Positions 10,728 to 40,385 of a stretch of DNA of 64,000 nt are shown piece after piece. The DNA comes from Geomonas ferrireducens. GTDB taxonomy: Bacteria > Desulfobacterota > Desulfuromonadia > Geobacterales > Geobacteraceae. Position 1 is the first letter of the stretch. Each line of letters starts with the position of its first letter. Both the position numbers and the translations under genes were made by a program. A model generated the notes under the pieces. That model searched no databases and had not been told where the DNA came from. It saw only the letters and a program-made list of their open reading frames with translations. The stretch spans positions 1,217,897-1,281,896 of the forward strand of contig NZ_SSYA01000002.1 in assembly GCF_004917065.1 (NCBI RefSeq). Reading direction: 5' to 3'.

Positions 10728-11001
10728 AAAATAAAAAAGCCTCCGCCCCAGCAAGGGGCGAAGGCTTCTAAAAAGCTTCCGCGGTACCACCCTCATTCAT
10801 CCGCCTTGCGGCAGACCTCGTTGTCCCCTTTACGCGGGGTTTCGGTCATGGCTAGGAGCGACGCGTTCTCGGTAGAACGGGTGTTCTTCACCACGACGGC
10901 TCGAAGGCGAGTTCACCTGCTTCCTCACCGGTTTGCACCAACCACCGGCTCTCTGTAGGGGAAGTTATAGGCTACTACTCCTCGTCATTGCCTTTACATT
11001 A
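10728..11001 (-). promoter_or_regulatory. T-box leader (leucine) upstream of leuA
   Basis: On the minus strand the canonical T-box GGGTGGTACCGCGG lies at 10779-10795 and is followed by a terminator stem (10739-10749 with 10755-10764) and a T run at 10730-10738. Upstream is a stem I region with an AGAGAG-type distal element, and a GAACTC segment at 10914-10909 in the specifier position, reading CUC (Leu). Uncharged tRNA-Leu should favour the antiterminator and allow leuA expression. Leucine T-boxes on leuA are known in Geobacter relatives; the specifier call is mine by eye. Confidence 0.92.
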
Positions 11002-36081: not shown

Positions 36082-36507
36082 ATGAACCAGCGGCGTTTTC
36101 ACCGGGTTAAACACACGGCACCCGGCGAACTGAAACATCTTGAAATGAAATATCGTTGCCGCATCGAAAACATATCGCTTCGCGGCGCGCTCATCAGTGC
36201 GGACGAATGTCTGATGGTTCCGCTCAACGAATCCTGCACCCTTTCCATCGAGGTCTCCCCCGGGGAAGCCCCCATGGTCATCACGGTCAGCGTGGTGCAC
36301 TGCTTCTTCTCGATGATGGGTGTGAAGTTCACTGCCTTCGAGGGGAACGCTGAGCAGACCCTGCTCGAACTGATCAAAAGGATCACGACCGAGCCGGAAA
36401 AGCTTATGCAGGAATGGGAAAGCATTCAGCAGGAAAAGGCGGGACGCAAACAGCAGACCGTTGCCGGGCCTGCCGTCGCGATTTCTAACGAAGGAATCAG
36501 AGCTTGA
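36082..36507 (+). CDS. PilZ-domain c-di-GMP-binding protein
   Basis: 141 residues. A single PilZ domain with RRFHR at 4-8 and the N-x-S-x-x-G-type ENISLRGALI near 30-39, the two c-di-GMP contact motifs. A helical tail (about 95-125) follows. No signal peptide or other domain, so an adaptor that relays c-di-GMP to another protein. GCGAGGAGGGC lies upstream. Target unknown. Confidence 0.88.
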   Translation: MNQRRFHRVKHTAPGELKHLEMKYRCRIENISLRGALISADECLMVPLNESCTLSIEVSPGEAPMVITVSVVHCFFSMMGVKFTAFEGNAEQTLLELIKRITTEPEKLMQEWESIQQEKAGRKQQTVAGPAVAISNEGIRA

Positions 36508-36517
36508 AGCCTTACGG

Positions 36518-36892
36518 CTAGTGACTGCCGAAGCCGTCGGGACGTGAAGAGGAGGGAACGCGCCTTTCATAGGGAAGGCAGCTGTTAATATTCAGCACCT
36601 CCTCAGCAAGCGCCACACTCTTGTACCTCAACGAAACCTGTTCCAGTTTGTCCTTCAGCCGGACGAGAACGTCCAGACTCTCCGTACGTGCGTATTCGTT
36701 GTACAACTGCATCACTTCCATGAAAACGCAGTCGAGAGATTCCTCAATGGATGGGCGCACGTCACGAGGCTCTGCTTTTCTCTCATCCGCACCGGCATCA
36801 GCGTTCCGGCGTGCTTCCTCCCTGAAACGGCATAGCGCGAGCCTGTCGATCTTGTACTTGGCGTTGCCGATATCAAGGATACTTCTAACCAT
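36518..36892 (-). CDS. Uncharacterised small helical protein
   Basis: 124 residues, mostly helical and charged, with MEVMQLYNEYARTESLDVLVRLKDKLEQVSLRYKS-like residues around 58-92. It has no recognised motif, signal peptide or membrane segment. A G-rich ribosome site (GAGGGGGGGAG) precedes the ATG. Convergent with the PilZ gene, 10 bases apart. Confidence 0.7.
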   Translation of the reverse strand: MVRSILDIGNAKYKIDRLALCRFREEARRNADAGADERKAEPRDVRPSIEESLDCVFMEVMQLYNEYARTESLDVLVRLKDKLEQVSLRYKSVALAEEVLNINSCLPYERRVPSSSRPDGFGSH

Positions 36893-37046: not shown

Positions 37047-37074
37047 TTGACAGGGTACAGGCCTTGCGTTATCG
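37047..37074 (+). promoter_or_regulatory. Promoter ahead of the cyclic-dinucleotide riboswitch
   Basis: TTGACA at 37047-37052 with TTATCG at 37069-37074 (16-base spacing), about 30 bases before the aptamer. Confidence 0.6.
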
Positions 37075-37104
37075 TTCCTGCGAAAACCGCAACAGCACCG
37101 ATAG

Positions 37105-37180
37105 ACGACAATACTAAACCATCCGCGAGGATGGGACGGAAAGCCTACAGGGTCTCTCAGAGACAGCCGGGTCGCCGAAA
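37105..37180 (+). ncRNA. GEMM-I riboswitch, predicted cyclic AMP-GMP (3',3'-cGAMP) type
   Basis: The aptamer core is unmistakable: AAACC (37116-37120), a P2 stem capped by a GCGA tetraloop (37125-37128), GGGACGGAAAGCC (37133-37145), a short P3 stem, and CAGCCGGGTCGCCGA at the end. Aligned to the V. cholerae Vc2 numbering, position 20 (37113) is A where c-di-GMP binders have G, the change known to select cyclic AMP-GMP in Geobacter. Positions 21 and 46 are C and G in place of G and C, a compensated pair that supports the alignment. Confidence 0.9.
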
Positions 37181-37212
37181 TATCACATAGATATTAGGCC
37201 CCGGCTTTTTTA
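37165..37212 (+). terminator. Riboswitch-controlled terminator
   Basis: AGCCGGG (37165-37171), the 3' part of the aptamer, can pair with CCCGGCT (37200-37206), with an inner ATATC/GATAT stem, followed by TTTTTTATT. Ligand binding would hold the first arm and prevent termination, giving an ON switch. Confidence 0.85.
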
Positions 37213-37303
37213 TTGCGCGGAGTTTGAGACAGAGACAGAGAAGTCCCTGCTTGAGCTCGGGATACAAAAGACGGGGCAAATACCACCCCGAAAGGAATCC
37301 GAC

Positions 37304-37573
37304 ATGCGCATGAAACCACCCTCAACCTCACTGGCTGCCTTAGCTCTTACCTGCTTCATGCTGGCAGCCCCTACGACAAGCCACTCCGGAACCGTCGGCG
37401 TTAACATCCAGCTTAACGGCTACCTCCCCGCCCCCCCAGGAGTACACATCTACTACGACTCCGGGCGTCCGTATTACGTAGAGAACCACCAGCGGGTTTA
37501 CCTGAAGAAAAATGAGAAGGACCACCACGACCACGGCAAGAAGAAAGGACACAAAAAGCATCATCGTGACTAA
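37304..37573 (+). CDS. Small exported His/Lys-rich protein under riboswitch control
   Basis: 89 residues. Signal peptide about 1-27 (LAAPTTSHS). The middle has GVNIQLNGYLPAPPGVHIYYDSG-like sequence and the last 20 residues are almost all Lys, His and Asp (KKNEKDHHDHGKKKGHKKHH), a possible metal-binding tail. The opening block resembles proline-rich YXWXXA-type exported proteins. AAAGGAATCCGAC precedes the ATG. It is the first gene behind the cyclic-dinucleotide riboswitch, so it is probably part of the extracellular electron-transfer or surface programme (inference). Confidence 0.8.
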   Translation: MRMKPPSTSLAALALTCFMLAAPTTSHSGTVGVNIQLNGYLPAPPGVHIYYDSGRPYYVENHQRVYLKKNEKDHHDHGKKKGHKKHHRD

Positions 37574-37606
37574 CAGCGGATCTCCAAACAAAAGGAGGAC
37601 ACCACA

Positions 37607-38539
37607 ATGCGAAAGATCTTTGTTTCCTACCGTTATCTGCTCATCGCCCTTTGCACCGTCACCGCAGCCCTTTTGTACCTGGGAGGATGCGGCGGAGGCG
37701 GCAGCAGCAGCACCAGCAAGGGGACCCTCAAGCTTGCCATCACCGACCGTCAAAGCGACGAATTCCAGAACCTTTTCATATCCATCCGTGAAATAAGGCT
37801 CGTGCCCGCGGGGCATGAAAACGCCGCCGACAACGACCCCGCACTGCCCGTATTCGCAAGCTACACCACCGCCAGGTCGGTGGACGTGATGCAGTTGCGC
37901 TTCAGCCAGGAAACCTTGGGCGACCTCGCCCTCCCCGCCGGCACCTACAGCCAGATCCGCCTCATCCTTGATCCGAACCCGGGCGGCAACCAGGATCCGG
38001 TCAACTACCTCGTCCTGGCGAGTGATCCCAACACGAAGATCCCTCTAACCACGCCGAGCGGACAGCAATCCGGGCTCAAGATCCTCGGACCGATCGAGGT
38101 CAAGCCTGGCGTCATCAACGCCGTCATGATCGACTTCGACCCAAATACGGCCGTGGTGAAGCGCGGCAACACCGGACAGTACAACTTCAAGCCTACCGGG
38201 ATAAGGCTCATCCAGATGGCGAACATGCTTGAGACCTTCGGTTCCATCGCAGGCAACGTCAGCAATCCGTCCGTCAACTGGAGCAGCGCCACCGTCTCCG
38301 TCAAGCGCCGCGGGACCATCAACGACACCAACCCGATTGCAGCGGGGCAGATCTTCGCGACCTATACCAGCGGCAAGTGGCAGGCGCCTTTCTCCGCCTT
38401 CGTTCCTGCCAACACCACCGACTACGGCTACAAGGCCTTCATAAGCGCGAACGGCTTCGCCCTGTACTCGTCGGCAGCGGTATCGGTCACCGCCGGTCAC
38501 GAAACATCTCTGGGTGAGATCACCCTAACACCACAGTAA
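37607..38539 (+). CDS. DUF4382 lipoprotein
   Basis: 310 residues. A lipoprotein signal peptide ends in LGGC (Cys near residue 28) followed by a GGGGSSS linker. The DUF4382 beta domain starts GTLKLAITDRQ and runs to about 195; a second beta domain (about 205-310) is like carboxypeptidase-regulatory or Ig-type folds. Anchored in a membrane, role unknown. AAAGGAGGACACC precedes the ATG. It lies 33 bases after the small His-rich gene and probably shares the riboswitch-controlled transcript. Confidence 0.88.
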   Translation: MRKIFVSYRYLLIALCTVTAALLYLGGCGGGGSSSTSKGTLKLAITDRQSDEFQNLFISIREIRLVPAGHENAADNDPALPVFASYTTARSVDVMQLRFSQETLGDLALPAGTYSQIRLILDPNPGGNQDPVNYLVLASDPNTKIPLTTPSGQQSGLKILGPIEVKPGVINAVMIDFDPNTAVVKRGNTGQYNFKPTGIRLIQMANMLETFGSIAGNVSNPSVNWSSATVSVKRRGTINDTNPIAAGQIFATYTSGKWQAPFSAFVPANTTDYGYKAFISANGFALYSSAAVSVTAGHETSLGEITLTPQ

Positions 38540-38613
38540 TTGATCGTTATGTGCCCGGTCTGTCCCCAACAGGGGAGGACCGGGCACTACTCTTAATCAG
38601 GAGAACAGGCTGT

Positions 38614-39015
38614 ATGCCTATTATTGAATGGAAGGACTGTTATTTGGTTGGCATACAAGAGATCGACCGTTATCACCAACACCTGGTGCAATATCTCAAC
38701 AGAAGCTATGACCATTTCCGTGAAAACCACACGCTTGAACCGGGGGTACTGGAAATCCTGGTCGATTTCTCCATCCAGCAGTTCAACTGCGAGGAACGCT
38801 GGATGCAGCGAAGTTCGTACCCGAAACTCGCCGCGCACAAGGAAGAGCATCGGCACTTCCAAACCGAGATAGCCTTGCTGAAAAAAGGAAGTGGATTGGA
38901 TACCAAGGGATGCGTCGACCTGCTCTGGTTTTTGTGCTCTTGGGTCACGAACCACATGCGCGAGAGCGATGCGGAGTTCGGCAGATTTCTCGATTCCCAG
39001 CCGCGACGGACCTGA
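38614..39015 (+). CDS. Bacteriohemerythrin
   Basis: 133 residues from the ATG at 38614 (CAGGAGAACAGGC upstream). A four-helix hemerythrin with most di-iron ligands visible: His in IDRYHQHL (about 20-23), Glu in NCEERWM near 61, His in AAHKEEHRHF near 76-82, and HMRESD near 118-123. Reversibly binds oxygen, likely for oxygen sensing, storage or delivery. May be the last gene of the riboswitch transcript. Confidence 0.92.
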   Translation: MPIIEWKDCYLVGIQEIDRYHQHLVQYLNRSYDHFRENHTLEPGVLEILVDFSIQQFNCEERWMQRSSYPKLAAHKEEHRHFQTEIALLKKGSGLDTKGCVDLLWFLCSWVTNHMRESDAEFGRFLDSQPRRT

Positions 39016-39057
39016 ACAGAGCTCATAAACGGGCAGAGCGCCCGTCACTGAGGATAC

Positions 39058-39096
39058 AGCCGGGTTGCGATTCAAGACATTGCACCCGGCTTTTTT
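39058..39096 (+). terminator. Terminator after bacteriohemerythrin
   Basis: AGCCGGGT (39058-39065) pairs with ACCCGGCT (39084-39091), then TTTTTT. A smaller ACGGGC hairpin (39029-39045) precedes it. Confidence 0.85.
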
Positions 39097-39184
39097 ATGC
39101 CTGGATTAAAAGCTGCGCCCGAAGCTGGGCAGAGGCGTATCATTTACCTGTAGCATTTAGTGACAACAAAGGAGGATAGCATCC

Positions 39185-39989: not shown

Positions 39990-40385
39990 AAGATCGCGGT
40001 GGTTCGTCCGGATACCTTGGTGATTCCTTGGAAAACGTTATGCGAATCGTCCGAAACTCGGGGTGATTCATCCGAACGTTTTGTGCATCGTCCGAAGACT
40101 TGGGTGATTCGGCCCCAAGGTTTAGGTGATTCGTCCCAAGTCTTCGGCGGTTCGCCCAAAGACTTGGGTGGTTCGTCCGAAGACTTGGGTGGTTCGTCCA
40201 AAGACTTGGGTGGTTCGTCCAAAGACTTGGGTGGTTCGTCCAAAGACTTGGGTGGTTCGTACAAAGACTTGGGTGGTTCGTCCGAAGACTTGGGTGGTTC
40301 GTCCGAAGACTTGGGTGGTTCGTCCGAAGACTTGGGTGGTTCGTCCAAGGACTTGGGTGGTTCGTCCGAAGACTTCTGCGAACTT
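39990..40385. repeat. 21-bp minisatellite
   Basis: Ten near-perfect units of 21 bases (gacttgggtggttcgtccgaa type) at exact 21-base steps from 40161 to 40371, with Ser/Gly or Pro/Glu coding potential on either strand. Leftwards the same unit decays through increasingly mutated copies to about 39990. Every frame stays open because the unit lacks stops; I do not annotate a gene here. It occupies most of the 637-base gap between the SYLF and FN3 genes. Confidence 0.92.

Follow-up and report, generated by a model that had tools for sequence, protein, structure and literature searches.

In a Geomonas-like soil bacterium, a predicted riboswitch of the GEMM-Ib type, which would respond to cyclic AMP-GMP (cGAMP), stands in front of three genes: one for a small exported protein rich in His and Lys, one for a DUF4382 lipoprotein and one for a hemerythrin-like protein. 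The region lies in the stretch of 64,000 nucleotides that was analysed as a whole (the window). We assign a probability of about 0.78 to the overall explanation, in which a GEMM-Ib switch governs a three-gene output module for life on surfaces. The regulatory part, a cGAMP-dependent ON switch over the operon, is predicted with still greater assurance, and the surface-contact function, by which the operon would serve cells living on surfaces or particles, is advanced tentatively, as a proposal that could well fail. GEMM-I aptamers are referred to below as A-type or G-type according to the base at the G20 position. The features of the region are as follows.

37047–37075, + strand: sigma-70-type promoter, TTGACA-17-TATCGT, 10/12 in the promoter scan
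37103–37179, + strand: GEMM-I aptamer, predicted A20 (GEMM-Ib, cGAMP) type, from the RF01051 match and alignment A3
37165–37211, + strand: intrinsic terminator, its 5′ arm overlapping the aptamer 3′ end (z -5.05), also seen in the 22-sequence alignment A1
37304–37573, + strand: gene for an 89-aa exported His/Lys-rich protein, from a family of 28 aligned proteins
37607–38539, + strand: gene for a DUF4382 lipoprotein with a lipobox-like ...LGGC (PF14321, E 4.2e-33)
38551–38587, + strand: hairpin without a T-run between the DUF4382 and hemerythrin genes (z -6.48)
38614–39015, + strand: third gene, for a bacteriohemerythrin-family protein (NF033749, 92.2 bits, cut-off 84)
39058–39096, + strand: terminator closing the operon, from folding against shuffles and comparison with same-genus regions

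Gene order and the three encoded proteins

The order small protein, DUF4382 lipoprotein and hemerythrin behind the switch is kept in 15 of 19 same-genus genomes, and a hemerythrin gene follows in the window and in all 14 same-genus regions that were fetched for holding the small protein and DUF4382 together. Of the four other same-genus genomes, G018 and G024 have DUF4382 immediately behind a switch and the small protein at a different site; the remaining two are G026 and G027. Nine named loci, several of which belong to the same genomes as the 14 regions, show the same order with a PilZ gene and an opposite-strand gene in front. The hesitant placing of a bacteriohemerythrin in the regulon by the initial annotation is strengthened by this joint conservation behind the switch. 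The PilZ gene that it had reported just upstream is present at 36082–36507 and is a conserved neighbour in 9/9 named relatives having the operon. As a candidate member of the operon PilZ was rejected, since an opposite-strand ORF (36518–36892), itself conserved in relatives, lies between it and the switch.

An alternative account of the unit is that the switch controls the small protein and DUF4382 only, with the hairpin at 38551–38587 acting as a terminator and the hemerythrin gene being expressed separately. The hairpin is very stable (-32.9 kcal/mol) and occupies the same place in 9/9 named relatives, but it has no T-run in the window or in those relatives, the promoter scan gave no + strand match within 38540–38613, and the gene order is preserved in 15/15 genomes that carry the small protein and DUF4382 together. 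Separate expression seems rather unlikely; the hairpin is taken as a stabiliser or weak pause, but it may be a partial terminator and might cut short or trim the transcript ahead of the hemerythrin gene. The preferred three-gene operon has its closing terminator at 39058–39096, which on the strength of its position and a shared 3′ part is probably what remains of another GEMM-I riboswitch, likewise A-type. Behind the hemerythrin gene, 8 of the 14 same-genus regions hold a second aptamer, A-type in all eight, before a Ysc84/SYLF gene. In the window (39016–39100) and in its two nearest relatives, the 3′ part and the terminator are all that is left. An aptamer model search of the window at E up to 0.1 returned the aptamer at 37103 and nothing else. 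Further along, short direct repeats of about 21 bases (GACTTGGGTGGTTCGTCC...) were noticed by eye at 40130–40380, between the Ysc84 gene and 40491.

The first gene encodes, as had been claimed, a small His/Lys-rich exported protein, whose ORF combines a signal-peptide-like start, an NGYLPAPPGV...GRPYYVE..RVYL core and a basic tail. The 89-aa product has no NCBIfam match and a Pfam match only below cut-off (E 0.053), and its AlphaFold2 model is of low confidence (mean pLDDT 63.4), with short strands only at 49–66. The closest named relatives by this protein are Geomonas edaphica (94% identity) and G. oryzae (92%). Alignment of 28 members, taken from 30 loci after two loci without a clear ORF were left out, revealed a signal-peptide-like start, an invariant PAP.GV, a GRPYYVE..RVYL core and a tail with a median of 27% His and 36% Lys+Arg by a crude cut that includes the core in some rows. 

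The small protein has 32 matches, spread over 27 of the 48 genomes of the family. A search for it behind other GEMM-Ib switches, proposed earlier as a check, placed 24 of the 32 matches in GEMM-I-led units, each of them with an A-type aptamer. Thirty of the 32 loci were scanned with Rfam, which gave the 24 aptamers; none was found at the remaining two (L189 and L190), so that no aptamer was found near 8 of the 32 matches. The chance of a GEMM-I match in a random 300-nt same-strand stretch is about 0.0006 (798 matches in 204 Mb), although the genomes counted are related and the counts are not independent events. The aptamer lies 71–270 nt upstream of the small-protein match in 22 of the 24; in the other two (L045 and L046, the latter cut by a contig end) the small protein comes second in the unit, after a gene for a barrel-like outer-membrane protein so labelled by reading of its sequence. 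At three loci (L044, L054, L055), aptamer-free relatives of the small protein lie beside a gene with GVSVGIGIGLPNVSIGINLP, or a near variant of it, in its product.

The second gene encodes a 310-aa protein that belongs to the DUF4382 family by Pfam (PF14321, 114.9 bits against a cut-off of 25), which together with its lipobox-like motif upholds the earlier call of a DUF4382 lipoprotein. Its AlphaFold2 model is all-beta, with two groups of strands (mean pLDDT 76.8, pTM 0.60). Foldseek returned a leucine-rich repeat protein as the best match, then Bacteroides putative adhesins and Gram-positive pilins, with TM by query length of at most 0.22 among the 50 matches listed, so an adhesin- or pilin-like fold is only a hint from the model. 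Sequence searches of the PDB with the small-protein and DUF4382 alignments gave nothing below E 0.2.

DUF4382 was found in 37 of 48 family genomes, in 48 rows, or 47 genes when two adjacent rows are counted as a single split gene. An aptamer stands upstream of 31 of the 47, and all 31 are A-type; none was found near the other 16. Among the 30 DUF4382 loci returned with the search an aptamer is upstream in 27, in 15 with the small protein between and in 12 without it, and none was found at L112, L113 and L122; among the other 17 genes it is present in four (L161, L175, L177, L186). These counts come from an aptamer model (R1) that finds close relatives best because it was built mainly from the host genome's own aptamers. 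The 16 switch-led DUF4382 genes without a small protein between are spread over eight genera, including that of the window. Judged from these loci, the small protein and DUF4382 are each tied to predicted A-type switches without the other.

With regard to the third gene, the product is a hemerythrin family member by sequence, and a working diiron site is in doubt. It reads QQFNCEE, with Gln in place of the ligand His, as do its two nearest relatives, so that the diiron ligand set is incomplete; the His of HFxxEE is a residue that we take to be a diiron ligand. Twelve of 15 hemerythrin orthologues keep His at this position. The host genome has 13 hemerythrin matches, nine over the cut-off, and two of the 13 lie in A-type switch units; the other switch-linked gene starts 116 nt behind an A-type aptamer (RS11) and its product has Cys there. 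With Gln in the clade of the window and Cys behind RS11, oxygen binding may be impaired.

Aptamer type and the cyclases of the genome

The aptamer belongs to the GEMM-I family (RF01051) by a score of 43.2 bits against a gathering score of 35 (E 4e-05 for the 64-kb window), and is one of three Rfam matches at gathering scores in the window, together with a tRNA and a T-box leader (10751–10997, - strand, 110 bits). The initial annotation had named A at position 20 and a C21-G46 pair as hallmarks of a cGAMP switch. The first is borne out: nucleotide 37113, at Rfam model position 11 and hence the G20 position, is A, as in the solved cGAMP riboswitch, where A14-C15 stand at the matching places and P2 opens with C15-G40 according to PMC6274999. 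The pair is likewise present directly after A20 (C37114-G37139) and invariant in 22/22 rows of alignment A1, but taken by itself it is not diagnostic. The host genome of 4.8 Mb holds 15 GEMM-I aptamers, 10 A-type and 5 G-type (15/15 typed from individual matches, 14/15 in alignment A3); the C-G pair occurs in all 10 A-type aptamers, and among the five G-type aptamers three have G-C and two have C-G (RS04 and RS14). A20 is thus the mark that counts, and PMC6456294 reports that A20G in the Gmet_0970 GEMM-Ib riboswitch turns selectivity from cGAMP to c-di-GMP. We infer from A20 that the element at 37103–37179 is a GEMM-Ib riboswitch with cGAMP as its predicted ligand.

We consider it improbable that the aptamer has c-di-GMP as its main ligand or responds to both messengers, with the operon as a c-di-GMP output. 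Such a reading could draw on the Rfam name of the family (c-di-GMP-I), on the prevalence in the genome of GGDEF domains with the Asp of c-di-GMP makers (23 of 26, three having Ser or Thr), and on the GEMM-I switch of the omcST operon, which is described as sensitive to both messengers in PMC6456294. Against it stand the A20 found here and in related aptamers (A then CT in 24/24 adjoining small-protein genes and in 31/31 upstream of DUF4382 genes), and the five other aptamers of the same genome that keep G20, which indicate that the two types coexist.

A cGAMP switch over the operon, the preferred reading, calls for a source of the messenger. The GGDEF search gave 27 rows that represent 26 domains, two rows being halves of one. 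The three proteins without Asp at the base-recognising position read GHLIGS with GGDEY, GYAKGS with GGDDF, and GHLAGT. The first (C2:36748-37221) has Ser at the position of GacA Ser348 and is the candidate Hypr cyclase of the genome; it is a protein of 459 aa with a receiver-like start, and its GGDEF domain is 65% identical over 163 aa to 6d9m, an entry that matches the T4-lysozyme-Gmet_1914 fusion solved in PMC6456294. By sequence this cyclase is GacA-like. The GGDDF protein with Ser resembles GSU1937 as described in PMC8835794. In a G. sulfurreducens gacA mutant, transcription of all genes behind GEMM-Ib switches is lower, again according to PMC6456294.

The first genes behind A-type switches in the host genome encode a PAS-GGDEF-EAL protein, an MshEN-REC protein, a hybrid histidine kinase, a hemerythrin, a 704-aa protein that no family fits convincingly, a small lipoprotein-like ORF ahead of DUF4388, proteins of the fibronectin-III type (two by scan, a third, behind RS12, by likeness only) and the operon at 37304; two of the ten first-gene proteins in the family scan lie behind G-type switches. 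The A-type switch before the PAS-GGDEF-EAL gene (L019 on C2, aptamer 175620–175696) suggests that cGAMP may act on c-di-GMP turnover. At another locus (L017 1042–1875; C1:1776041–1776874) a second hemerythrin gene lies between an A-type switch on its 5′ side and a G-type (c-di-GMP-like) switch on its 3′ side. Beyond the latter runs a reading frame that stays open over at least 2565 codons; the two messengers may converge on this stretch.

Promoter, terminator and direction of the switch

The promoter scan found 2 sites in the region against 1.0 +/- 1.0 in shuffles, a count close to the shuffle level, so that the promoter at 37047–37075 rests on conservation. A promoter-like pair lies 21–31 nt upstream of the aptamer in 24/24 aptamer-bearing small-protein loci, with an exact TTGACA in 23 of the 24 and 16–18 nt to a -10-like hexamer, as located by a best-match search run without a shuffle control. 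The terminator consists of a stem at 37165–37206 and a T-run to 37211, with a folding energy of -22.0 kcal/mol against -9.57 +/- 2.46 in 200 shuffles; it is absent from the list of a simple terminator scan. Its 5′ arm (37165–37176) falls inside the aptamer match. Because the terminator uses the 3′ strand of the aptamer, ligand binding should let RNA polymerase pass, and the riboswitch should be of the ON type, in agreement with the terminator of that type claimed earlier.

An inactive or bypassed switch, with the genes expressed from a promoter located after the terminator, is very improbable, and such a start was one of the outcomes that the initial annotation had named as refuting it. The 92-nt gap between the terminator and the start codon of 37304 could in principle hold a promoter, but no good one was found there (the best promoter-like pair has 5/12 mismatches), and in alignment A1 the gap is poorly conserved beyond the closest relatives, whereas the aptamer and terminator are conserved and the upstream promoter is too.

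Under the proposed ON mechanism, transcription would start near 37083 from the housekeeping-type promoter. In the ligand-free RNA, the aptamer's 3′ end would pair into the terminator and transcription would stop near 37211. Binding of cGAMP, presumed to be supplied by the GacA-like Hypr cyclase encoded elsewhere in the genome, at the junction with A20 would cause the aptamer to retain the shared strand and block the terminator, and the small protein, DUF4382 and hemerythrin genes would then be transcribed to the terminator at 39058–39096.

Known systems and the predicted output

The switch is of a known kind. PMC6456294 and PMC8835794 describe the cGAMP class together with its ligand and its part in metal respiration, and the first of these also reports that the kind of surface to which electron transfer is favoured in Geobacter differs between cGAMP and c-di-GMP. 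Among the Geobacter GEMM-Ib switches treated there, Gmet_0970 shares the A at the G20 position, and termination at the pgcA (Gs1761) switch is relieved by cGAMP, an architecture that is predicted here as well. A Hypr cyclase is encoded in the genome in those systems, and likewise here. The GEMM-Ia c-di-GMP riboswitches have the same fold and belong to the same RF01051 family, but they keep G20 where the window has A. The difference from pgcA and Gmet_0970 lies in the output: those switches govern a cytochrome or pilus operon, and the cGAMP targets named in PMC6456294 are mostly cytochromes and pilus genes, whereas the operon described here encodes an exported His/Lys-rich protein, a DUF4382 lipoprotein and a hemerythrin-like protein.

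Two further published cases are comparable. GSU1556 of G. sulfurreducens is a lipoprotein gene with a GEMM-I switch, likened here by description, the available part of PMC10599522 naming no domain. The GEMM-controlled fibronectin type III genes of G. bemidjiensis, as given in PMC2996986, also place surface proteins behind GEMM, and fibronectin-III-type genes follow A-type switches in the host genome too, although these proteins are unrelated to those of the operon. A literature search turned up no report that connects cGAMP riboswitches to DUF4382, to an exported protein rich in His and Lys or to a hemerythrin, the class-defining gene lists of 2015 lying outside this comparison. Searches for DUF4382 gave only a Haloferax glycoproteome table and nothing jointly with Geobacter, and those for Geomonas with riboswitch gave nothing on the point. 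The output module is thus one for which the search returned no description.

As for what the products may do, the DUF4382 lipoprotein would be adhesin-like and displayed on the cell surface, and the hemerythrin-like protein would deal with oxygen or iron inside the cell. The small cationic protein would act outside the cytoplasm, where its binding partner would be a polyanion, a metal or a mineral. A more speculative idea, on balance doubtful, is that the 89-aa protein represents a family, so far undescribed, of very small exported proteins, polycationic and His-rich, that serve as dedicated cGAMP outputs in Geobacteraceae. They would join a tail that binds metal or polyanions to the conserved GRPYYVE..RVYL hairpin and work alone or with a surface partner (here the DUF4382 lipoprotein, elsewhere the outer-membrane-barrel-like protein), attaching cells to Fe(III) particles or tuning the matrix. 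Comparative genomics points to two uncharacterised families of exported proteins as recurrent predicted cGAMP outputs across the Geobacteraceae, and both offer concrete knock-out targets for learning how cells hold on to minerals.
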